A DNA stretch of 34,395 nt from Bacteroidota bacterium (GTDB taxonomy: Bacteria > Bacteroidota > Bacteroidia > UKL13-3): contig CANHVU010000030.1 of assembly GCA_947464275.1 (NCBI GenBank), positions 1 to 34,395 of the forward strand. The letters run 5' to 3'. The notes under the pieces were generated by a model. That model searched no databases. It saw only the letters and a list, made by a program, of their open reading frames with translations, and had not been told where the DNA came from. The position numbers were made by a program, and so were the translations under genes. Numbering within the stretch: the first letter of the stretch is position 1; the number at the start of each line of letters is the position of its first letter. Shown here piece after piece: positions 7,084 to 30,155 of this stretch.

Positions 7084-7401
7084 CTATTCGCTAAAAAGTA
7101 TTTCTATTTTTTGCCTGAACCTTTTTAATGGATGGCGTTTTGCATGTATAAAACGTAAAATAATTACTTCAAATTCTATTACTTCGAAAATTATAAGATA
7201 AGGGAATCTATCTAATTGGGCTTGTTTATAATTAGCATGCTTACTCTCAAATGCCTTAGGATTATTTTGAATATTATTTAGCGTATTTTCCCATTCATCA
7301 AGTAAGGAAATACCTAAGCCAGTTTGTCTTTGTTCGTAATAAAAAACAGATTCATTGACCTCTTCATAAACCTGTTCTAAGACAATAATCTCAAATTTCA
7401 T
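7084..7401 (-). CDS. Type II toxin, RelE/ParE superfamily
   Basis: A 105-residue protein with the RelE/ParE pattern: an N-terminal strand (FEIIVLEQVYEEV), two helices (ESVFYYEQRQTGLGISLLDEW, then LNNIQNNP), and a C-terminal sheet RFPYLIIFEV...VIILRFIHAKRHP with the usual Arg/His/Pro ending. Members inhibit translation by ribosome-dependent mRNA cleavage (RelE) or inhibit DNA gyrase (ParE); the FPYLIIFE and HAKRHP wording is closer to ParE-type annotations. The start is the ATG at 7401, which overlaps the antitoxin gene by 11 bases. An in-frame TTG two codons upstream (7407) is less likely. Activity is inferred from family and context only. Confidence 0.8.
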   Translation of the reverse strand: MKFEIIVLEQVYEEVNESVFYYEQRQTGLGISLLDEWENTLNNIQNNPKAFESKHANYKQAQLDRFPYLIIFEVIEFEVIILRFIHAKRHPLKRFRQKIEILFSE

Positions 7402-7636
7402 TGCCAATATTTTTCAATATTTTTTCACGAACTTCTTGCACACTATACGTATTAGCTTTACCACTTTCGTAAAGTTCTTTTCGCTCATTAAATAATTGAA
7501 TTTCGTCCTCATTTAACTCGTAAGTTAGACCGTTGATATGTTTATTGATTATAACATAAATTGCTTCTAAAAATGATTCATCATCAATTTCATTAACAGC
7601 TTTGGTTATTTTGCTTTTTAAAAGAATTGTATCCAT
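7391..7636 (-). CDS. Antitoxin of the RelE/ParE-type pair
   Basis: An 81-residue acidic protein placed directly before and overlapping the toxin. An N-terminal helical region (LLKSKITKAVNEIDDESFLE) is followed by an acidic helix and a C-terminal segment ELYESGKANTYSVQEVREKI, a pattern common in Bacteroidota ParE partners in which the C-terminal tail wraps the toxin. I see no clear ribbon-helix-helix or HTH DNA-binding domain, so autoregulation is not evident from sequence. Start is ATG at 7636, with a strong TTTG/TACATTTG promoter just upstream. Confidence 0.72.
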   Translation of the reverse strand: MDTILLKSKITKAVNEIDDESFLEAIYVIINKHINGLTYELNEDEIQLFNERKELYESGKANTYSVQEVREKILKNIGNEI

Positions 7637-17404: not shown

Positions 17405-17591
17405 TCCTTTTTTATACCATATTACTAAAAAACGTACACCATTTTTAACCTCATCATGCCGTTTAAATAAAAAAACTGCCGTTCGTATAAATTTTTGTCC
17501 CAAATTTATAAAATGTAGCCGTTGTTCTACATGAAAATGTATTTTGCATTTAGTAATTTTATTATTAAACCAAAAAATAAATAAAACAAAC

Positions 17592-20500
17592 ATGACAAAA
17601 AAATCTACAAAACGAAGGGCGTGGTCCCTAGTATCCACGGTAGTTTTGCTACTACTGCTTGGATCGAATTGGCTGCATGCGCAAAGCACGGCAAATTACA
17701 CTTTTTCAACGGGCACAACAGGCTCATTAGCCTTAGATGCTAATGGTAACACTGTTGATTTATCAACCGGTGCAACTGCATTAGTGAATTCTGGAATTGA
17801 TGAGGGTGCTTCTACTGTAAATAGTATTGGTTTCAACTTCACTTTGATGGGTGTAACTTATACGCAGTTCTCAGCCTCTTCTAATGGAGTTATTCAGCTT
17901 GGAAATACTGCTGTAGGAACAGCTACTTATATAGCTAGTGGCGGAACAGTTACTTCTCCAAGAATTGCTGCTTGGGGTTCAGATGCAACTACTACCACAA
18001 ATGGAGTGCGTTCTAAAGTTGTTGGAACATCACCAAACCGTTGTCTAGTTATTGAGAACAATGCTTTCTTAAATTACCAATCAACTATTAATCCTTGTCA
18101 ATTTCAAATAAGACTTTATGAATCGACTGGAGTAATTGAATTTGTTTATGGTTCAATGACTGCGGGTACAATTGTAAGTGCTGGTTCTATTGGTTTTTCT
18201 GTTGGAACAGCAACAAATACTTTGGCTTCAATTACCAATAGTACAAATGCTGTAAGTTTAACAACTTTTGCTGCTAATACACCAACTGCGAGTACAGCAG
18301 TACCTAATTTAAATTCTGCATCAAATGGTTCAAGAAGAGTTTATACTTTTACACCACCTGCGGCAACTGCTGCTAGCGGTTTATCTATTTCAAATATAGG
18401 TGCTGGTGGGATGACATTAAATTGGACTGCTGGTGCGACTGCAAATCATTTGGTTTATCGCTCATTAGATAATATTACTTATACACTGGTAGCTACTTTG
18501 CCAATTGCAACTACTACTTATGCTGCTTCTGGTTTAAACCCAAGTACACTTTATTATTGGAATGTAGTAGCAACTTCAGAAGGTGCTGCTTCTGCAGCAA
18601 TAAATGCAAGTGCAAGTACTAATGCCCCAACTTTATCAGGAACAAAAACAGTTTGTCCTTCTGGTTGTGATTACGCAACTTTAACAGCTGCTACAGCTGA
18701 TATTGCTACTCAAGGATTGGCAGGCCCAGTTGTTTTAGAATTACAACCTTCTTATGTTAGTACATCAGAAACTTTCCCAATCACTTTTGGTGTTTATGCC
18801 GGTGGAAGTGCAACTAATAACTTACAAGTAACAGTTAATTCAGGTGCTACAGCGTTAAGTATAGCCAATACTAATACTGCTAGTACTGCTTTATCTATTG
18901 ATATGAATGGTGCTAGTTATGTTACTATTGATGGTCGCCCAGGTGGAGTAGGTACTACTTCAGAATTGAGCATTTCAAATACAAACATTGCAACTCCTGT
19001 TATTAGATTAATTAATAATGCTAATAATAATACTTTAAGATACTTAACCATTAGAGGTGTGAATGTTTCAAACACTGCTGCCACAATGGGTTTAATTAGT
19101 TTACAAGGTTCAACTGGTACTACAAGTACTTCAGGTAATAGAAAAAATACTATATCAAATTGTACAATAGGTGCTGGAGCTACTACTCCACTTAAAGGTA
19201 TTTATTCTATTGGTACTTCTACAACAGTTGTTAATGATAGTAATATTGTTACTAACAATAGTATCTCAGATATTTTTAACCCAACTGCTGCAAGTACTGC
19301 AAATTGTTTAGCTATTGATTTACCTTCAGGTAACTCTGACTGGACAATTACAGGTAACAGTTTCTTCTTGTCTTCTGCAAGAGCTTCTACTGCAGGTTCT
19401 CAAATTAACTATAGCATTTTTATCTCTGGTGGAGATGGATATGTAGTTAATAATAATTTCTTTGGTGGAAGTACAGTTTCTGCAGGTGGTTCTTGGACCG
19501 TTAATGGAACTCCAGTTGCTTACCGCTACAATGCTTTAAGCATTAGTGCTGGTACTACAAGAATTTCAAATGTTCAAGGAAATACATTTAAAGGTTTTAG
19601 TATAGTTAGTACCTCTGGAGGTTCTGCAGCTAATCCTGTTTGGTCAGGTATAACTGTAGCTGGAGGTAATGTAAATGTTGGAACAACTACTCCCAATACA
19701 ATTGGAAGTACTAGTGTGGTTGATAACATCATAGTTTCAAATACTACCTCTTCAATTACAACAAATGGATTGGGTGTTACAGGTATCATTGTTTCATCAA
19801 CAGGTGTTGTGAATGTTGCCAACAATATTATCGGAGGTTTAACCTGTGCTAGTAGTTCTGCTACCATTGCTGGTAATGTTTGTGGAATAAATGTAACAGG
19901 AGGTTCTGGTAAAAAAGTAATATCTGGAAATACAATAGGTGGAAGTTTATCAAATAGCTTAAGAGCTGGAACTAATGGAACAACTACTACAGTTGCAACC
20001 GCAGTTACGGGTATTTTAAGTTCAAGTTCTGCAATTGTGGTAATTTCAGGTAATTCAATTTCTAACGCAGTAGCTTATGCTACTACAGGTGTTACAGCGG
20101 TTAGAGGTATTATAGTTTCTTCAGGTACTGATACCATTGCTAATAATACCATTTCAGCATTAAGTACCAATGGTGCTGGTTCAGTTATGGGTATTGCAAG
20201 TAGTACTACTACTGCTGGTATTGATATCTCTAGAAATAGTATCAATAATTTAACGGTTGTAAATGCAAGTGCATCTGCTAGAGGTATTCAATTATCATCA
20301 GGTGCTAGTACATGTAGAGTTGCTTATAACTTTATTCAAGGTATCACAGCTTCGTCTTCAAATGGTAATGCTATGATTATGGGTATTGATATTGGACATA
20401 CCAATTCTCAAAATATCTACAACAATACTATTGTTTTAGGTACAGCAGCTTCGCCTTTAACCGGTGTTACTAATTTTGGTGTAATTGGTATTAGTTATAA

Positions 20501-23500
20501 TACTGGTACAACTGATATTAGAAATAATATCATTGATATCAATGCTACAGCAATAGGTACCGGTGTTAACATTGCTTTAAGAAGAGTTGCAGGAACAAAT
20601 GGAACTGCTCCAACTAATTTAGCTACAACTTCAAATAGCAATATTTATTTTGTACCATCAGCAGATTTTAATTATTTCTACGCTGAAGGTGCTACTGCAA
20701 ATAGAGCTACTATAGTAAATGCATACCATAATTGTGCTTCTTGTACAAATACCGGTGTTACTACAGCGCCAGTTGTAGATGCAAATGTTAACACAAGTTG
20801 TTCAAGATTTAAATCGTTTATGGGTGCAACAAGTTCACGTGAAGGTTCGTCATTCTATGAGGATGTAATTTTTGCAGGTGGTGCAACTATACCTAATAAT
20901 TTAATTCCTGCTCCAACTGGGTCTACTTTTGTATTAGATGGTGGTCAAATAGTTAGTGGTTTAACAACTGATTATTTTGGAAATGCTGTTAGTACTACTA
21001 TCCCTGATATTGGTGCTTCAGAATTTACTTCAGGTACTAAATCAGATGCAACAGCACCTGCAATTTCATTTACAGCAATTCCTTCAACAGCTTGTAGTTC
21101 AAATCCTACATTTGTAGCTACTATTACTGATGGAAGTGGCATTGATTCAACTACCAATGCTCCTAGAGTTTACTACCGTTACACTACGGATGCTGTAACA
21201 GCTTTAGCTTCGGCTAATAATAATACTGTGGGTGGATGGAAATACACCACAGCAACTGCAAAAAGTGGAAATAATTTTACTTTTACCATTGATTATTCAT
21301 TATTAAACAAATCAATAGTAGCTGCTGATGTAATTCAATATTTTGTGGTAGCTCAAGATTTAGCTGCTACTCCTAATGTTAAATTTGCAACTGTAGGATT
21401 GGCTGCTAATCATTGCCCAACTTCAGTTAACTTAACATCTGCTGCATTTCCTATCGTAGTTTCTCCAACTATCACTACTTTGACAATTGCTAACACACCT
21501 ACAGTTACGGTTTCAACTAATAAAGTTGAAAATTGTACTGGTGGAACAATTTTTACTATTAGTGCCGCTGCTGATGGATTAGCTATTTACGATTGGCAAA
21601 GAGCAAATACCACTACCGCTTGGACTAGTTTTGCTACTCAACCTACCAGATTAACTTCTACTACTTTTAGTGCTGTATTATCAGCTGCTAATACAAATGA
21701 TACCATTCGTGTAGTGGCTACTTGTCCTGGTGCAGTTACTCCATTATTTACTTCTAGTAGAGATACTTTAAGAAATATTGTTGATTGTCAATATACAGTT
21801 GCAAGAAACACTGGTATTACTTACAATTCAATTATGACTACTGGTAGTACCTTCACTACTTTATCAAGTGCTGATGATGGTTTTACTAATAAAGTATCTT
21901 TAGCTGGAACCACTTTTAAATATAGAGGTAAAGTTGTAGGTGGTTTTTATGCTTCAACTAATGGTTGGATGTCATTAGATACCACTGTTCAAACAGGATC
22001 GTTAACAAATGATTTATCTGCAACTGGTCAAAGATCTGTTATCGCTCCTTTCTGGGATGATTTAGTGTTAAAAGGTTTCCCTGGAATTACAGGTACTACC
22101 AATTTAAATTCTTGTATGCGTTACAAAATCAATGGAACTTTAGGAAGTGGTACTGCTGATATTATCATGGAATGGGCAGAAATTGAAGGTTATAACTTCC
22201 CTGCACCAAATTTAAATTTCCAAGTAATTTTGCATGAGTTAGGTAATACCATCGAAATTAATTATGCTAACATGCAATTGTATGATGGTTCTTCAACTGC
22301 TGGCGTATTTACCTATGCTACTGGTATGAATGGTAGTTCTCCTGGAACTGCTAGTTTAGATCAACGTATGATTTTACAAAATACTAATACAGATTACTTT
22401 ACCTCAGCTAGTGTAACAACTTTAAATCAATCTCCTGCTTGTTTTTCAGGATATTTATTTACTCCAGCAGTTAGCTATACCGTTGGAACTGCACCTGTAA
22501 CTACAGCTGCACCTTCAAATAATGATACTGCATCTTCAGTTTTATTAACTGTAAATTCAACTCCATGTACTAGTGTTTGTGGAACTATTTATAGAAGTAC
22601 TAATGGTACAGCTACATCAGGTGTAACTGCTTGTTCAGCCACTACTCCAGGTAATGCTGATGATGATGTTTTCTTTAAATTTACAACTACTACTGCTCCT
22701 CAATACAAAATTGCAGTAACACCTTCATTAGGTTACGATGCAGTATTGCAAGTTTTAAATTCTTCATTTACTCCAGTAGCATGTGTAAATGCTGGTGGTG
22801 TTGGTATTTTAGAACAATTCCAAGCACTTGCTTTAAGTTCAGGAACATACTATGTACGTGTATATGATGCAGCAACTGGTGCATCTGGTTCAGGCGAATT
22901 TGGAATTTGTGTGAGTGAGGTAATCCCTGCTCCTGCAAATGATGAAGCTACCAATGCAGTATCATTAACTGTTGGTAATACATGTAATCCTACAAATAGT
23001 CCATTACCAAATGTATTATCAGCTACTGCTTCTGCGCAAGCATCTTGCTCAGGTACTGCCGATGATGATGTATGGTATAAATTTACAGCTGCAGGCGCTG
23101 GTATTGGTCAAACAGTAAGAGTTACTGGTGTATCTACTTACAACCCTGTATTGCAAATTTTTAGCGATAGTGGTATTACTCAAGTTGCTTGTGTAAATAA
23201 TACAGGTAATGGTGGTGTTGAATCATTCTACAGTACTTCATTAACTCCAGGACAAGTTTATTACGCTAGGGTTTATCACTCAGGTAATGGAGTTGCCAAT
23301 GGTAATTTTAGTATTTGTGTTTTTGCTGATGTACCTACATGTACTTCAAAAATTTCACCTTCAGCTAATGCTTCGTTTATTACTGGAGATTCATTAAAAT
23401 GGAATGCTGCTACCTTTGCAACAGGTTATGATGTTTATTTAGATGTGGTTAATCCTCCTCTTAATTTAGTTTCTTCTAACCAAGCGTCAACTTTTTATCC

Positions 23501-26500
23501 TACAAGTGGACTTAGTAGTAGTACAGTTTATTACTGGCAAATTGTACCTTTAAATAATATAGGTTCAGCTTCAGGTTGTGCTGTTGATTCATTTAATACC
23601 AATCCTCCTAGTTTTATTCCAGCTCCAACTTCACCTGCAGTAGGTTCTACTTCACGTGTTGCTACTAATTTAGTTTTAAGCTGGCCTGCTTCTAGTGGAG
23701 CAACGGGTTATGACGTTTATTATACAGCTGGAAGTACAACTGCTACTTCTCAAGTTTCAGCTAACCAACCAGGTTTAACATACACAGTTGCTTCTGTACC
23801 TGTTGGTGTTCATGCTTGGAAAGTGGTTCCAGTAAATGCAAATGGTGCTGCTACGGGAGCAATTGATTGGATTTTCTATGATTCATTACCTGTACCTGCT
23901 TTAACTCCAATTTCTGTAACAAATGGAGGAACTACTCCTTTAGATTCTAATGTATTATTAAGCTGGACTGCATCAACTGGTGCTACAGGTTATAATGTAT
24001 TTTTAGATGCAGGAACAGGAACCGCAAGTACTATGGTTTCATCAAATCAAGCTGGTACAACCTACAGAACGGGTAATATTGCTGCAGGTGCTTATACTTG
24101 GAGAGTGGAGCCTATCAATGCAAATGGAGGATTAAGTTCAACTGATTGGACATTTACAGTTCAAACTCCTACTTGTATTGCTTCACCAACTTCACCAACT
24201 AATAATTTTGTTGCTTGTTTATCAGCATTACCTACTTTAAGTTGGGCTGCGGTAACAGGTGCTAGAGGTTATGATGTTTATTTAGATGCAGGTACTTCTG
24301 CACCTACTACTTTAATATCATCAAATCAAACAGGAACTACTTACACTTTAACAGGTGCACTCTCGGGAGCATACACTTGGAGAATTGAGCCAAGAAATAA
24401 CAATGGTGCAACATCAAGCTGTACCTTCTGGAATTTCACAGTGAACAATCCAGTTGTGGTTTCTTCTTCAGGAGCAACTCGTTGTGGACCAGGTTCTGTT
24501 ACATTAAATGCAGTAAAAGCCAATGCTACAGATTCTATTATCTGGTATGCTGCTGCTACAGGTGGAAATGCTTTAGCTTATGGCACAAGTTATACACCTA
24601 ATGTAACTGCTGATACAAACTATTATGTTGCTGAAGGAGTTTTCAGTATTCAACAAGGATTAGGATTAGATACTAATTCAGTTCCAACTACTACTGGTGC
24701 TTTTGCTCAACGTGGTATTGTATTTACTGCTAATACTGATTTTGTGTTAAATACTGCACAATACTATTCACCAACATTAAATGTAACAAATACAGCTACG
24801 GTATCCTTGATTAATCACACTACCGGTGCTACTATTTCAACTTTAAGTATTCCTGTAGCTCAAGGTGGAACAGCTGGCTGGTACACTTTAAATATGGACT
24901 TAAATATTACTGCTGGTGTAACTTATAGATTATTAGCTAGCTTTAGCCAATCTGTAAATAGACAAGCTGCTGGTATTGACTATACTATAGCTCCATATAA
25001 TAATTTGGGCTCTTTTGGAACCATTACTAGTGGATATGATGGTGCTGTAAGTGCAACCACTTATAGTTATTTCCATAATATTACGGCTACAAGCGGATGT
25101 ATTGGATCAAGACAACAAGTACAAGTATTTGTAACTACCCCTCCTTCTGTTTCTGCTGGTACTGGGGTTTCTATTTGTCAAGGTACAAATACATCATTAA
25201 GTGCATCATCTGGTAATACTAATTATACCTATTCTTGGTCTCCTGCTACTGGTTTATCAGCTACTAATACTGCTTCAGTAACTGCTACACCTTCGGTTAC
25301 TACTTTATATACTGTAACTGGTTCTGATGCAACTTCTGGTTGTGCGGCAACAGATACTGTAAGAGTTACCGTTAACAGAGCACCAAATACACCTGTATTA
25401 ACACCTAGCACTGCTTCTATTTGCGCTGGTGTTCCTCAAATGCTTGCAGTTACTAATTCTGCAACAGTACAAGTAGGAACAGCTAATACCACTTCTGCAA
25501 ATAATAATACTTCTCCTTATACTAGTAATTGGGAAGGTGCAAGACAGCAGTATTTAATAACAGCAGCTGAATTGAATGCATTAGGATATACTTCAGCTAG
25601 TAACATTAATAGCATTGCATTTAATGTAATTACTTCTGGTGGTTTTAATCAAACCGACTTCTCTATTAAAATTGGTCATACTTTGGCAACAGCGTTAACT
25701 TCATTTGTAACACCTACAGGCGCTGGATTTACAAATGTTTTTGGACCAACATTATTAACAATACCTCCTACAGGTTGGAATAAGTATAATTTTAATACTC
25801 CTTTCGCTTGGGATGGAACATCTAATATTGTAATTGATATTTGCCATGATAATGATATTGCTGGTACTTGTCCTGCATGTTATGGTGCCAACTCTACTAT
25901 TGAGTTTACAGCAACTCCTTTTGTATCTGTATATGGACGTTCTGCTGATAATGTTCAATCATGTGGTGTAGCAGGTACTGGAGGTAATTCAAATAGACCT
26001 AACATTAGATTTGAGTTTGATGCAAATAACAATGCGTTATGGGCACCAACTACAAACTTATTCTTAGACGCTGCTGGTACAATGCCATACACAAGTACAC
26101 TTGAAGATACATTATATGTAATTTCAAATACTTCAATCAATTATGGTGTTACATTCACATCAGTTAATTCTTGTACTTCTACTGATACAGCTCGTGTAAG
26201 TATTACTACTGCTCCTGCTGCACCAACTAGCTTTACTGCTAGCAATGGTACAAATAGCTCGTTTGATTTAACTTGGAATACTTCACCAGGTGCTTTAGGC
26301 TACTTAGTTGATGTTTCTGACAATGCTGGTTTCACTAGTTTTGTTTCTGGTTACAATGGTTTATCAGTTTTAGGTGCAAGTGCATCAATAGCTGGCTTAC
26401 CGGCAGGTAATACTTATTATGCTAGAGTAAGTGCAGTTGGTACTTGTTCAAATTCATCAAATGTAAATACATCTATTTTGTTAAAATCAGATGCTCCAAC

Positions 26501-27338
26501 TGCGTTGAATGCTACAGCAGTTTCAACTTCTGGATTTACTGCAAATTGGACTGGTGCAAATGGTGCTGCTTCATACTTATTAGATGTTTCTACTGTGAGT
26601 AACTTTAGTACATTTGTAAGTGGTTACAATGCTGCATCTGTAAGCGGTACTAGCGAAGTAATAACAGGCTTATCTTTATCTACTAAATATTTCTACAGAT
26701 TACGTTCTGTTAATGCTTCTGGCACTTCAATTAATTCTGTGGTAGATTCAGTTACAACTTCATCTTCTACTTGTACCTTAAACGTAACAGCCTTTTTACA
26801 AGGATTATACTTAGGAGGCGGAGTAATGATTTCATCACCATTCAATGCAGATGGCGTAAGCTCACCAACGGTAGCCGATACAATTACAGTAGAATTACGT
26901 AATCCAGATTACAGCTTAGCATATAGTGTAAGCGATACATTAAGTACAACAGGTCAAGCAAGCATTACCTTCCCAGGAAGTGCAGTAGGCAATAAATACT
27001 ATGTAGTAATCAGACACCGTAACTCAATCGAGACATGGAGTAGCGATAGTATATTGATTGGTAGCACAACAAGCTATGACTTTAGTAGTGGAGTAAGCCA
27101 AGCATTTGGAGACAATATGTTAGATGATGGATCAGGCGTATTTTTAATATACGGTGGAGATATCAACCAAGATGGCTCAGTGGATTTTGGAGATTACCCA
27201 GATTTAGATTTAGGAAGTAGTAATAGTGATGTTGGATATTTTGCAACAGATTTAAATGGTGATAGCTCAGTAGATTTCGGAGATTATCCAATGTTAGATT
27301 TGAATAGTAGTAATTCAATATTCTCATTCCATCCATAA
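17592..27338 (+). CDS. Giant mosaic surface protein with dockerin-like C-terminus (3248 aa)
   Basis: Start is ATG 17592, giving a basic/hydrophobic signal peptide (MTKKSTKRRAW, VVLLLLLG, cleavage near HAQ, ~31). An upstream TTG adds nothing useful. Domains in order: beta-sandwich ~35-260; FN3 ~262-345; right-handed beta-helix ~352-1138, rich in Asn/Thr/Ser turns and closing at PDIGASEF; Ig-like ~1150-1290; second beta-sandwich ~1400-1635 (VIAPFWDDL); two PPC-like domains ~1640-1775 and ~1780-1912 (ADDDVFFKF, ADDDVWYKF); four FN3-like repeats ~1914-2284; Ig/PKD-like units ~2286-2350 and ~2517-2596; a jelly-roll-like domain ~2634-2808; two FN3 ~2874-3059; and a C-terminal module ~3060-3248 with two calcium loops, DINQDGSVDFGD and DLNGDSSVDFGD. 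It is probably exported, plausibly by T9SS, and adhesive or structural. No catalytic domain is seen and no canonical T9SS tail is present. A TATTTTG lies 46 bases upstream, one base short of the -7 consensus. Confidence 0.85.
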   Translation: MTKKSTKRRAWSLVSTVVLLLLLGSNWLHAQSTANYTFSTGTTGSLALDANGNTVDLSTGATALVNSGIDEGASTVNSIGFNFTLMGVTYTQFSASSNGVIQLGNTAVGTATYIASGGTVTSPRIAAWGSDATTTTNGVRSKVVGTSPNRCLVIENNAFLNYQSTINPCQFQIRLYESTGVIEFVYGSMTAGTIVSAGSIGFSVGTATNTLASITNSTNAVSLTTFAANTPTASTAVPNLNSASNGSRRVYTFTPPAATAASGLSISNIGAGGMTLNWTAGATANHLVYRSLDNITYTLVATLPIATTTYAASGLNPSTLYYWNVVATSEGAASAAINASASTNAPTLSGTKTVCPSGCDYATLTAATADIATQGLAGPVVLELQPSYVSTSETFPITFGVYAGGSATNNLQVTVNSGATALSIANTNTASTALSIDMNGASYVTIDGRPGGVGTTSELSISNTNIATPVIRLINNANNNTLRYLTIRGVNVSNTAATMGLISLQGSTGTTSTSGNRKNTISNCTIGAGATTPLKGIYSIGTSTTVVNDSNIVTNNSISDIFNPTAASTANCLAIDLPSGNSDWTITGNSFFLSSARASTAGSQINYSIFISGGDGYVVNNNFFGGSTVSAGGSWTVNGTPVAYRYNALSISAGTTRISNVQGNTFKGFSIVSTSGGSAANPVWSGITVAGGNVNVGTTTPNTIGSTSVVDNIIVSNTTSSITTNGLGVTGIIVSSTGVVNVANNIIGGLTCASSSATIAGNVCGINVTGGSGKKVISGNTIGGSLSNSLRAGTNGTTTTVATAVTGILSSSSAIVVISGNSISNAVAYATTGVTAVRGIIVSSGTDTIANNTISALSTNGAGSVMGIASSTTTAGIDISRNSINNLTVVNASASARGIQLSSGASTCRVAYNFIQGITASSSNGNAMIMGIDIGHTNSQNIYNNTIVLGTAASPLTGVTNFGVIGISYNTGTTDIRNNIIDINATAIGTGVNIALRRVAGTNGTAPTNLATTSNSNIYFVPSADFNYFYAEGATANRATIVNAYHNCASCTNTGVTTAPVVDANVNTSCSRFKSFMGATSSREGSSFYEDVIFAGGATIPNNLIPAPTGSTFVLDGGQIVSGLTTDYFGNAVSTTIPDIGASEFTSGTKSDATAPAISFTAIPSTACSSNPTFVATITDGSGIDSTTNAPRVYYRYTTDAVTALASANNNTVGGWKYTTATAKSGNNFTFTIDYSLLNKSIVAADVIQYFVVAQDLAATPNVKFATVGLAANHCPTSVNLTSAAFPIVVSPTITTLTIANTPTVTVSTNKVENCTGGTIFTISAAADGLAIYDWQRANTTTAWTSFATQPTRLTSTTFSAVLSAANTNDTIRVVATCPGAVTPLFTSSRDTLRNIVDCQYTVARNTGITYNSIMTTGSTFTTLSSADDGFTNKVSLAGTTFKYRGKVVGGFYASTNGWMSLDTTVQTGSLTNDLSATGQRSVIAPFWDDLVLKGFPGITGTTNLNSCMRYKINGTLGSGTADIIMEWAEIEGYNFPAPNLNFQVILHELGNTIEINYANMQLYDGSSTAGVFTYATGMNGSSPGTASLDQRMILQNTNTDYFTSASVTTLNQSPACFSGYLFTPAVSYTVGTAPVTTAAPSNNDTASSVLLTVNSTPCTSVCGTIYRSTNGTATSGVTACSATTPGNADDDVFFKFTTTTAPQYKIAVTPSLGYDAVLQVLNSSFTPVACVNAGGVGILEQFQALALSSGTYYVRVYDAATGASGSGEFGICVSEVIPAPANDEATNAVSLTVGNTCNPTNSPLPNVLSATASAQASCSGTADDDVWYKFTAAGAGIGQTVRVTGVSTYNPVLQIFSDSGITQVACVNNTGNGGVESFYSTSLTPGQVYYARVYHSGNGVANGNFSICVFADVPTCTSKISPSANASFITGDSLKWNAATFATGYDVYLDVVNPPLNLVSSNQASTFYPTSGLSSSTVYYWQIVPLNNIGSASGCAVDSFNTNPPSFIPAPTSPAVGSTSRVATNLVLSWPASSGATGYDVYYTAGSTTATSQVSANQPGLTYTVASVPVGVHAWKVVPVNANGAATGAIDWIFYDSLPVPALTPISVTNGGTTPLDSNVLLSWTASTGATGYNVFLDAGTGTASTMVSSNQAGTTYRTGNIAAGAYTWRVEPINANGGLSSTDWTFTVQTPTCIASPTSPTNNFVACLSALPTLSWAAVTGARGYDVYLDAGTSAPTTLISSNQTGTTYTLTGALSGAYTWRIEPRNNNGATSSCTFWNFTVNNPVVVSSSGATRCGPGSVTLNAVKANATDSIIWYAAATGGNALAYGTSYTPNVTADTNYYVAEGVFSIQQGLGLDTNSVPTTTGAFAQRGIVFTANTDFVLNTAQYYSPTLNVTNTATVSLINHTTGATISTLSIPVAQGGTAGWYTLNMDLNITAGVTYRLLASFSQSVNRQAAGIDYTIAPYNNLGSFGTITSGYDGAVSATTYSYFHNITATSGCIGSRQQVQVFVTTPPSVSAGTGVSICQGTNTSLSASSGNTNYTYSWSPATGLSATNTASVTATPSVTTLYTVTGSDATSGCAATDTVRVTVNRAPNTPVLTPSTASICAGVPQMLAVTNSATVQVGTANTTSANNNTSPYTSNWEGARQQYLITAAELNALGYTSASNINSIAFNVITSGGFNQTDFSIKIGHTLATALTSFVTPTGAGFTNVFGPTLLTIPPTGWNKYNFNTPFAWDGTSNIVIDICHDNDIAGTCPACYGANSTIEFTATPFVSVYGRSADNVQSCGVAGTGGNSNRPNIRFEFDANNNALWAPTTNLFLDAAGTMPYTSTLEDTLYVISNTSINYGVTFTSVNSCTSTDTARVSITTAPAAPTSFTASNGTNSSFDLTWNTSPGALGYLVDVSDNAGFTSFVSGYNGLSVLGASASIAGLPAGNTYYARVSAVGTCSNSSNVNTSILLKSDAPTALNATAVSTSGFTANWTGANGAASYLLDVSTVSNFSTFVSGYNAASVSGTSEVITGLSLSTKYFYRLRSVNASGTSINSVVDSVTTSSSTCTLNVTAFLQGLYLGGGVMISSPFNADGVSSPTVADTITVELRNPDYSLAYSVSDTLSTTGQASITFPGSAVGNKYYVVIRHRNSIETWSSDSILIGSTTSYDFSSGVSQAFGDNMLDDGSGVFLIYGGDINQDGSVDFGDYPDLDLGSSNSDVGYFATDLNGDSSVDFGDYPMLDLNSSNSIFSFHP
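23334..24447 (+). repeat. Four tandem FN3-like repeats inside the giant gene
   Basis: Repeat units of about 92-95 codons begin near 23334, 23610, 23892 and 24170. Each carries an LxW strand (LKWNAA, LVLSWPAS, LLSWTAS, LSWAAV), a GYDV(Y/F)LDAG-type strand, SSNQxGTTY, and a closing W(R/K)(V/I)xPxNxNG. Units 3 and 4 are the most alike (YNVFLDAGTG versus YDVYLDAGTS), suggesting recent duplication. Confidence 0.75.
26766..27338 (+). other. C-terminal module of the giant protein, distinct codon use
   Basis: Encodes residues ~3059-3248: a beta-rich domain (LNVTAFLQGLYLGGGVM, ADTITVELRNPDYSLAYSV, YYVVIRHRNSIETWSSD) followed by two dockerin-like EF-hand loops. Valine is almost always GTA, alanine GCA or GCC and threonine mostly ACA. 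GCT, ACT, TCT and GTT, which dominate the preceding 9 kb, are nearly absent from 26776 to 27170. The module recurs, from memory, at the C-terminus of many large secreted Bacteroidota proteins. Confidence 0.7.
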
Positions 27339-27380
27339 TAGAAAAAAAGAAAGGCAATAAAATTGCCTTTCTTTTCTATT
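27336..27380. terminator. Intrinsic terminator overlapping the giant gene's stop codon
   Basis: An 11-bp perfect stem AGAAAGGCAAT (27348-27358) / ATTGCCTTTCT (27362-27372) with a 3-base loop. It extends by A/T pairs (AATAGAAA versus TTTCTATT) back into the TAA stop codon. It should separate the giant gene from the next gene at least partly. Confidence 0.8.
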
Positions 27381-27418
27381 AATTTGTAAACAGATAACAA
27401 CAAATAAAAAAAACAGAA

Positions 27419-29884
27419 ATGAAAAAAATAACAATAATAATGGCATTTATGTTGACACTAGGGTTGTCATTATATGCACAGTTACCCACTTTTGAGTGGA
27501 GATTAGAAAATGGAACATTGACAAGTTCAACCACTTATACAGTAGATGTATATTTATACAATAAGGGTGGTTCATCATTTGAATTACGTGGAGGTACGAT
27601 AGCATTTTTAACAAATTCAGCATGGCGTAATGGTGGAACTATAACCACATCAAAATTATCAAGTGGATTAGTAGCAGGCCAACAAAGCAGTCCAGTAACA
27701 GCTTATGTAACTACAGCACCAGAATACTGGCGTCAAACCATCACAAGTTTAGGAGCAGGTAGTGGAACTACAGTAGCAGCAGGATCACGCTTATTGGTAT
27801 TTAAAATGCAATTAAGCAATACGGTAGCCTTTTCAACAACAGCGTCACCAAATTTTGCATGGAAATTTAATGCAGCCCCATCAGCAGGATGGAATTACAC
27901 AGATGGAATAGGAAATTCAGCGAGTGTAGTAAGTAATACAGTAAATATCATCAACCAATTAAATTGCCATACACCAACATATTGGAATGGAAGCTCATGG
28001 GTATCAAAATCAGTAAGAAATGGAGCAGATACAGCAGTAATCCCAAGTTCATCAAAAGACGCAGTAGTTTATACTGGTACTTTAGGAGCAGGTGCATTAA
28101 CATGTAGAAACTACGAGTTACTATCAGGCGCAACCCATAATTTGGGCGCTAATACTTTAAGTGTAAACGGAACAAGTATGATAAACAGTGGTACTTTAAA
28201 TGCAAGTACAGGCACATTAAATTTAGAAGGTATTTCAGCAACACAAACAACGAATCAAAGCGTAAGTGGCAATGCATTTAGTGTAGCAAATTTAGGTTTT
28301 GGAGCATCAGGTAATGGAGGAACAAAAACCTTATCAGCAGGTGTATCAGTATCAGGATCAGTAAGCCAATCAGGCACAGCGGTATTGGCATCAGGCGGCA
28401 ACTTAACGTTATTGTCAAGTGCAACAGGTACAGCACGTATCAACCAATTAACCTCAGGAGCAGCAGTAACAGGTAATATCACAGTAGAACGTTATATTCC
28501 AGCAACAGGCAGAAAGTGGAGATTTTTATCATCACCAGTAGTAGGTGGAACAACTTTACAGTGGAGAGATAATGCAGGTACAACAGCAGGTCGTGGTATC
28601 CAAATTACAGGCGGTAACACAACTGATTACGATGTATCAACATCAAACTCACCATCATTATTCCGTTACAACGAAAGTTCAACAACAGGAGGAGCTGATA
28701 TTAACAAAAAATGGACACCAGTAAGTGGTAATACAAGCTTAACAAACGGCTTAGGTTACAGAACATATGTAAGAGGAGACAGAACAATATCGTTAACCAC
28801 TGTAGTAACCACTACCAATGCAACAACAATATGGGTAAATGGAACATATCCAAGTACTCCAGTAAGTATGCCAGTAACGTATAGTGCAGGTTTAGGAAAT
28901 GGATGGAACTTAGTAGGAAATCCATTCCCATGTCAAATTGATTGGAATGCAGCATCAGGATGGGGCAAAACAAATGTATCAGGTACTTTCTGGATATTTA
29001 ACCCAACAACAAACAGCTACGGATCATTTGATGGAACAACAACAATAAATGGCGTAACCCGTTATATTGGAAGTGGTCAAGCATTCTTTATCCAAACTAA
29101 TGGAGCAAGTCCAGTATTAACAGCAGATGAGGCAGTGAAAGTAGGCTCAACCCCACCGGTATTGTTAAAAACAAGCGAGCAAAACTCATTGAGAATCCAA
29201 TTAGTAAAAGATTCAACAGAGCGTGATGAGACTGTAATTAGATTTATGGAAAACAAAAGCGATGAGTTCAATGCTAATGATGATGTATTAAAATATGCAA
29301 TGAATGCTAATGTAAATATCAGCTCATACTATGGAGTAGATAAATACACAATGGTAAACTACTTGAATTCAAGAAATTTGAAAACCAAAGTAGTAGCATT
29401 AGGCGCATGGGTATCAAAAGCAGGAGTTTATACAATGAACTTTAATCAAATCGAAGACTTTGATGCGAATATCAATATTTACTTAAAAGACAATTACAAT
29501 AATACATTAACAGATTTAAGATTAAAAAACACTTATGACTTTAATGTAGAAGAAGGAAATGCAGCAAGTACAGCAGATGGAAGATTAGAAGTAATCTTTG
29601 TAAATACAAGTACATCAATAGAAGACGCCTTAGCCGGCTTAAGCCCAAAGATGGAAGTATATCCAAATCCAGCAGTAGACGTGTTACATGTATCATTAAG
29701 CAATGTAAACTTTAAAGAGTCAACAGTAAGTATTTACAACGTATCAGGCCAAGAAGTGATGAGTACAAATATGATTGGCAAAACAAAGAGCTTAGACATT
29801 GAAAAATTAAGCAATGGAGTTTATATGGTAAAAGTAACGAATAGCGCAACAGGCTATAGCAATACAGTAAAGTTTGTGAAATAA
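27419..29884 (+). CDS. T9SS-sorted secreted protein with N-terminal cohesin-like domain
   Basis: An 821-residue protein with a signal peptide (KKITIIMAFMLTLGLSLYAQ). Residues ~22-175 form a beta-sandwich with cohesin-like wording: YTVDVYLYNKGGSSFELRGG, AAGSRLLVFKMQLSN. Residues ~180-330 are repetitive beta-rich (ANTLSVNGTSMINSGTLNAS). A region common in T9SS substrates follows (VERYIPATGRKWRFLSSPV, then GNGWNLVGNPFPCQIDW). The last ~80 residues are a canonical type-A T9SS sorting domain: MEVYPNPAVDVLHVSLSN, STVSIYNVSGQEV, LSNGVYMVKV, ending TVKFVK. The protein should cross the outer membrane by T9SS and become cell-surface attached. It follows the giant gene after 80 bases and a terminator. 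A TAATTTG sequence between them is one base short of a -7 element. Function unknown. Confidence 0.85.
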   Translation: MKKITIIMAFMLTLGLSLYAQLPTFEWRLENGTLTSSTTYTVDVYLYNKGGSSFELRGGTIAFLTNSAWRNGGTITTSKLSSGLVAGQQSSPVTAYVTTAPEYWRQTITSLGAGSGTTVAAGSRLLVFKMQLSNTVAFSTTASPNFAWKFNAAPSAGWNYTDGIGNSASVVSNTVNIINQLNCHTPTYWNGSSWVSKSVRNGADTAVIPSSSKDAVVYTGTLGAGALTCRNYELLSGATHNLGANTLSVNGTSMINSGTLNASTGTLNLEGISATQTTNQSVSGNAFSVANLGFGASGNGGTKTLSAGVSVSGSVSQSGTAVLASGGNLTLLSSATGTARINQLTSGAAVTGNITVERYIPATGRKWRFLSSPVVGGTTLQWRDNAGTTAGRGIQITGGNTTDYDVSTSNSPSLFRYNESSTTGGADINKKWTPVSGNTSLTNGLGYRTYVRGDRTISLTTVVTTTNATTIWVNGTYPSTPVSMPVTYSAGLGNGWNLVGNPFPCQIDWNAASGWGKTNVSGTFWIFNPTTNSYGSFDGTTTINGVTRYIGSGQAFFIQTNGASPVLTADEAVKVGSTPPVLLKTSEQNSLRIQLVKDSTERDETVIRFMENKSDEFNANDDVLKYAMNANVNISSYYGVDKYTMVNYLNSRNLKTKVVALGAWVSKAGVYTMNFNQIEDFDANINIYLKDNYNNTLTDLRLKNTYDFNVEEGNAASTADGRLEVIFVNTSTSIEDALAGLSPKMEVYPNPAVDVLHVSLSNVNFKESTVSIYNVSGQEVMSTNMIGKTKSLDIEKLSNGVYMVKVTNSATGYSNTVKFVK

Positions 29885-29957: not shown

Positions 29958-30155
29958 ATGAAAATAAAAAGAATAATAGCAGCAACATTGGTATTAACGA
30001 TGTTTGCGATAGGCGCTCAAGCCCAACCAGGCAGTACAACAACCTCAGGCGATCCATTTGGAGATGAGCCGGTGGATGTACCAGTAGATGGTGGCATTGC
30101 AATATTGGCAATAGCAGGAGCAGCTTATGGTTTTAAAAGACTAAAAAACAAATAG
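29958..30155 (+). CDS. Small PVDGG-type C-terminal sorting-signal protein (PID-CTERM-like)
   Basis: A 65-residue protein with a signal peptide (residues 1-22, ending GAQAQ) and a short acidic/Pro/Gly spacer (PGSTTTSGDPFGDEPVDV). The C-terminus is tripartite: PVDGG (42-46), a hydrophobic helix (47-59, IAILAIAGAAYGF) and the basic tail KRLKNK. This arrangement is that of CTERM sorting signals. In Bacteroidota, tiny proteins with P(I/V)DGG plus helix plus basic end are, as I recall, annotated as PID-CTERM proteins; this was not verified. The mature secreted part would be only ~20-40 residues. It lies 73 bases after the T9SS gene, shares its codon style, and is followed by a strong terminator. 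The processing enzyme is not in the window. Confidence 0.72.
   Translation: MKIKRIIAATLVLTMFAIGAQAQPGSTTTSGDPFGDEPVDVPVDGGIAILAIAGAAYGFKRLKNK

Follow-up and report, generated by a model that had tools for sequence, protein, structure and literature searches.

We analysed a 34,395-nucleotide stretch of DNA from a Bacteroidota bacterium (contig CANHVU010000030.1; hereafter the window), in which the gene of a giant secreted protein is followed by that of a neighbour carrying a type IX secretion system (T9SS) tail. With a probability of about three in four, we consider the giant and its neighbour to be plug and socket of a docking system of Bacteroidota that resembles cohesin and dockerin but is non-cellulosomal. 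This keeps most of the model put forward in an earlier reading of the sequence alone. The type IX system would export the neighbour and anchor it via its type A tail, leaving an N-terminal cohesin-like domain (COH) on display; the giant would be held on it by its C-terminal X-dockerin module (XDOC), probably with calcium. The same would apply to the host's eight other XDOC proteins, including a subtilase and an endonuclease, and the COH-COH-XDOC proteins of some relatives would serve as adaptor scaffoldins. Such plug-and-socket pairs are found repeatedly across other Bacteroidota and probably serve to attach enzymes and adhesins to the cell surface. The direct basis of this model is made up of sequences, predicted folds, co-occurrence, adjacency, fusions, the near-exclusivity of T9SS tail and XDOC, and dockerin homogenisation, from which we infer COH-XDOC binding, its calcium dependence, the surface location and the passage of XDOC proteins across the outer membrane.

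The giant (17592..27338, plus strand) comprises 3248 amino acids counted from an ATG, within a frame open from a TTG at 17544. It is built of fn3, Ig-like and galactose-binding-like domains and ends with the XDOC, our name for a conserved unit of the last ~190 residues consisting of an X module, a dockerin-like loop pair and a short end. The X module (residues 3063–3188, about 125 residues; 26778..27155, plus strand) was delimited by a hidden Markov model (HMM) match and alignments, together with an X-dockerin fold in a relative, and carries the motif HRNSIETWS. The dockerin-like module (residues 3189–3248; 27156..27335, plus strand), recognised by dockerin profile matches and alignment, has Tyr 3187 immediately ahead of it and Pro as its final residue. 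Two dockerin-like EF-hand loops had been proposed here by a sequence-only reading, and a strict pattern confirmed both: DINQDGSVDFGD (residues 3190–3201; 27159..27194) and DLNGDSSVDFGD (residues 3220–3231; 27249..27284), on the plus strand and spaced 30 residues apart, are the sole strict EF-hand/dockerin loop matches when the window is translated in six frames, and the pattern was present in none of 2000 shuffles of the giant. Loop pairs could be aligned in 19 modules. The last 192 amino acids of the giant matched Dockerin_1 (PF00404) with E 0.019 and 15.6 bits (Pfam gathering cut-off: 22.9); 11 of the 19 related modules matched at E≤0.1, the best at 5.8e-6, and a related XDOC protein (L226) scored 25.4 bits, above the cut-off. 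Compared with the PDB, the XDOC sequence profile found dockerins (best 8x39 at 8.8e-6), X-dockerin chains (2b59_B at 0.019; CipA) and other EF-hand proteins.

The neighbour (821 amino acids; 27419..29884, plus strand) starts 80 bases past the giant and consists of a signal peptide (by inspection), the COH, a middle region and the type A tail. The COH spans residues 25–177 (27491..27949, plus strand) and was assigned by HMM match, structure model and fold searches. The tail spans residues 747–821 (29657..29881, plus strand) and was recognised by PF18962 (1.4e-14) and TIGR04183 (8.2e-14); the host genome encodes SprA, so T9SS is present. Hence the neighbour is of the T9SS-anchored type and the giant without a canonical T9SS tail, as earlier supposed: tail models sought in the giant with Pfam and NCBIfam gave no match. 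The neighbour thus belongs to T9SS type A cargo, whereas XDOC proteins, lacking the tail, would be held indirectly.

We then modelled both partners. The AlphaFold2 model of the window COH, built from 26 natural sequences, reached a predicted local distance difference test (pLDDT) score of 81.8 and a predicted TM-score (pTM) of 0.78, with poor values for the last 15 residues. Compared with solved structures, the first 17 rows were all cohesins (Z 10.0–10.8, 4–15% identity), the best being 4uyp_A (Z 10.8, root-mean-square deviation (rmsd) 2.9, 130 residues aligned). In Foldseek, a Ruminococcus flavefaciens cohesin (5lxv, E 5.4e-4) came first and CBM3 next. No cohesin emerged when the neighbour was scanned with Pfam and NCBIfam, or when the PDB was searched by sequence profile, so the cohesin likeness of COH came only from structure prediction. 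The cohesin-like beta-sandwich expected at the N-terminus is supported in this form: the predicted model aligns best to cohesins, with CBM3 in a formal tie considered below. The fold of the giant's C-terminal module was taken from L193, a natural COH-COH-XDOC relative with an XDOC 56% identical to that of the window. It is in this relative, and to that extent for the giant, that structure prediction gave an X-dockerin fold. The L193 XDOC was modelled at pLDDT 93–98 except for one ten-residue block (76), and resembled the clostridial X-dockerins 2b59_B (Z 9.2, rmsd 4.5, 145 aligned) and 4wi0_B (Z 9.0, rmsd 3.6, 133 aligned); its top row was the CipA chain 3kcp (Z 9.9, rmsd 9.7, 266 aligned).

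Gene order was examined in the window and the best 80 of at least 481 confirmed stretches, all chosen by XDOC. In these 81 loci, 21 of 25 COH genes immediately followed an XDOC gene in the same orientation, with gaps of 11–460 bp, where 2.4 would be expected from the 69 such slots among 725 genes. Since the loci were chosen by XDOC, this count favours adjacency. Six genomes searched whole are free of that bias: nine of their 16 COH open reading frames (ORFs) were XDOC fusions or came immediately after an XDOC gene, and two adjoined one in another arrangement. Both domains occurred on one chain in L116/L184, L170, L173, L193, L220, L237, L245, L264 and L145. Eleven of 20 complete COH ORFs ended with a T9SS tail, five with XDOC and four with neither; a T9SS tail was present in a single one of 106 complete XDOC ORFs, from an Ignavibacteria locus (the tail and adjacency counts exclude any ORF that repeated a previous one over its last 120 residues). 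Similarly, in a selection of proteins chosen for scanning, TIGR04183 matched six of nine further COH proteins and none of eight XDOC proteins. T9SS tail and XDOC are used near-exclusively of each other.

The host genome contains nine XDOC places, two of them interrupted by contig ends, which rules out a one-off gene pair. Two COH proteins were detected in it, hence the pairing of XDOC with COH need not be one to one. Two contigs of genome G000 break off within XDOC coding DNA (the end of C2, L004, and the start of C33, L003), where the encoded protein is 92–94% identical to the window copy; recent XDOC copies probably break this assembly. Cargo was scanned in the host's six other XDOC proteins that are complete, which excludes the two contig-end copies. 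Pfam identified one subtilase, one endonuclease I, one protein with Vps10/BNR, fn3 and PKD domains and another with Ig domains, and no family at E≤0.001 in the remaining two.

Co-occurrence of the two modules, which the sequence-only reading had proposed as a check, was found at two scales. In the family f1 (18 genomes), G000, G004, G009 and G015 carry both COH and XDOC and the other 14 neither; among 30 relatives, two genomes outside f1 (G018 and G025) gave weak XDOC matches, and COH was not found in them. Among 395 genomes of the class, the genomes with full-length XDOC at E<1e-40 numbered six and were the very ones that gave a good COH match; G173 supplied a seventh COH match, over a short stretch (E 3e-4). 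With wider profiles, 10 of these genomes had COH and 57 had XDOC, and nine of the 10 COH genomes carried both, falling in families f1, f61, f64 and f76. Because no more than 8 or 9 candidates were scored for each genome in the class searches, copy numbers are lower bounds; chance probabilities, which treat related genomes as independent with few families involved, overstate significance.

We further compared the two parts of XDOC. Between orthologues of G000 and G004, X modules were 84–91% identical and dockerins 42–49%, and the dockerins inside G000 resemble one another. Over 113 XDOCs from 40 genomes, dockerin identity was 0.683 within and 0.457 between genomes, and X identity 0.448 and 0.378, respectively. 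The same-genome effect on dockerin identity, given X identity, was 0.19, against 0.03 at most in 2000 label shuffles. This set was drawn from 152 XDOC matches by keeping labelled loci in which 150 or more positions were aligned and counting identical copies once per genome; the unlabelled loci left out were repeats of G004, G009 or G015 (L186, L197, L200, L201, L207, L210, L212, L217), a further group (L211, L224, L232, L247, L252) and region loci (L035–L038, L045–L047, L110–L113, L122, L168–L185). A shared, genome-specific receptor would yield such homogenisation.

Several observations weigh against docking. As for the folds, CBM3 modules begin at Z 9.9 for the window COH, formally tied with the cohesin value of 10.8. 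The COH domains of L193, in a weaker model, matched CBM3 (7.9) above single cohesins (6.2), and PF00963, the cohesin family, matched none of the 26 COH domains at E≤0.1. The L193 scaffoldin model has a pTM of 0.49 and says nothing on a COH-dockerin contact. COH could accordingly be a CBM3-like glycan binder and XDOC a stabilising end with no relation to it, the two being neighbours through co-regulated clusters of surface-protein genes. We hold this to be improbable: the direct downstream position, the COH-COH-XDOC chains and the genome-wise homogenisation of dockerins are predicted by a docking pair instead.

The distribution also leaves partners unaccounted for. In the class search with wider profiles, COH was not found in 48 of the 57 XDOC genomes, G173 has COH and showed no XDOC, and for five of the 16 COH ORFs from the six whole-searched genomes the stretch retrieved contained no XDOC gene. 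Judging from sequence matches, part of the missing COH is a matter of profile reach: an iterated COH profile gave matches next to, or in one chain with, more divergent XDOCs (L145, L149, L150, L152, L155, L156, L157), which is weaker evidence because the profile was iterated on those same loci. ORFs beside L146, L147, L153 and L166, COH-like by eye, failed this profile and were not counted, nor were those beside L164 and L167, which are unlike COH. As for homogenisation, the effect was absent in the lowest bin of X identity (0.43 versus 0.42, 17 within-genome pairs), and gene conversion confined to the dockerin could be an alternative cause. Across 15 genomes, COH identity correlated with dockerin given X (0.53) no more strongly than with X given dockerin (0.55), so this correlation was not used as support.

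The ends of XDOC proteins bring in another explanation, in which the C-terminal module, above all X, serves as a sorting or export signal, with the dockerin acting as a structural cap and the COH protein being accessory at best. XDOC ORFs stop as they would with a C-terminal signal: 103 of 106 terminate 4–8 residues beyond the module. Moreover, these proteins need an export route, yet have no T9SS tail. One of the two host XDOC proteins lacking a Pfam family (L042:8299-10959) carries a choice-of-anchor Q domain (NF041518) ahead of XDOC; the choice-of-anchor name marks domains that precede varied surface anchors. Pro is the last residue in 93 of 108 XDOC proteins, and Tyr or Phe stands two residues ahead of the first GD in 104 of 108. 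Such a constant end does not have to mean sorting, because an aromatic-proline clasp stabilises an R. flavefaciens dockerin, as reported in excerpts of PMC5934362; it is also compatible with a dockerin clasp.

In genome G348 (loci L292 and L295–L305), where class searches found no COH, the protein stops within a residue of the end of X for seven of the 11 X modules; of the others, one stops seven residues on, two run into other sequence and one is followed by a degenerate dockerin. Absence of the dockerin in most of these proteins, with no socket in view, agrees with docking. The persistence of X at the protein end suggests a role of its own, so that X may act alone, and this counts with the sorting signal and with the points against docking. 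Co-occurrence, adjacency and fusion with a cohesin-fold domain are, however, not predicted by a sorting signal, which we regard as unlikely. A further reading, also doubtful, is a two-part C-terminal address unlike a T9SS tail, in which X would export the protein, alone or with the COH protein, and the dockerin would then clip onto the T9SS-anchored cohesin. If true, this address would be an undescribed route of export and surface assembly in Bacteroidota, used by nine proteins in the host genome.

The proposed docking pair can be set beside known systems. The type II cohesin/X-dockerin system of Clostridium thermocellum CipA (2b59, 3kcp), which provides the top fold matches of the L193 XDOC, has the same Ig-like X module with C-terminal dockerin and likewise a cohesin-type partner on a surface-anchored protein. 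Here, in contrast, the anchor is a T9SS tail instead of a Gram-positive one and COH lies outside PF00963. Unlike in a cellulosome, no cellulase family was found by Pfam in the XDOC proteins scanned (the giant and six of the eight others of the host). The closest system in print, as far as excerpts of PMC8542988 go, is the T9SS-anchored scaffoldin complex inferred for Ca. Stygibacter (Cloacimonadota), likewise with a T9SS-type C-terminal domain on the cohesin protein and dockerin enzymes including peptidases. There, a single scaffoldin of 3,755 amino acids carries tandem cohesins and carbohydrate-binding modules, with domains assigned by InterProScan; here, the anchors have a single N-terminal COH, the dockerins come with X modules, and the genes lie in adjacent pairs. 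The Bacteroidetes treated in two papers are reported to have no cohesins or dockerins (PMC5831590) and no dockerin or scaffoldin proteins (PMC6247017), respectively, and single-cell genomes of Alistipes and Bacteroides gave Dockerin_1 hits, cohesin being found only in a Christensenellales genome (PMC10266427). Among the literature matches listed, none describes the pair in Bacteroidota, to judge from titles and the opening lines of abstracts, and a 2009 survey of noncellulosomal modules may already mention this family. If the pair binds, the type IX system would underlie plug-and-socket assembly at the surface of a range of Bacteroidota, the socket belonging to a family missed by Pfam. This would account for the ability of giant secreted proteins to sit at the surface when they lack T9SS tails, and would offer a rule for predicting cargo and new binding pairs for protein engineering.

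Past the COH gene by 73 bp begins a gene for a small PID-CTERM protein of 65 amino acids (29958..30155, plus strand; NF046080, 38.6 bits for a cut-off of 26). All four COH genes found in the genus (window, G000:C18, G004:C17 and G009:C2) have a PID-CTERM gene within ~140 bp. As a partner or driver of the pair this protein was rejected, since it occurs in 22 of 30 relatives, mostly without COH or XDOC; no literature on PID-CTERM was found. Elsewhere in the window, two overlapping small ORFs of 107 and 81 amino acids on the minus strand (7084–7636) presumably resemble, by their sequence alone, a toxin-antitoxin pair of RelE/ParE type.

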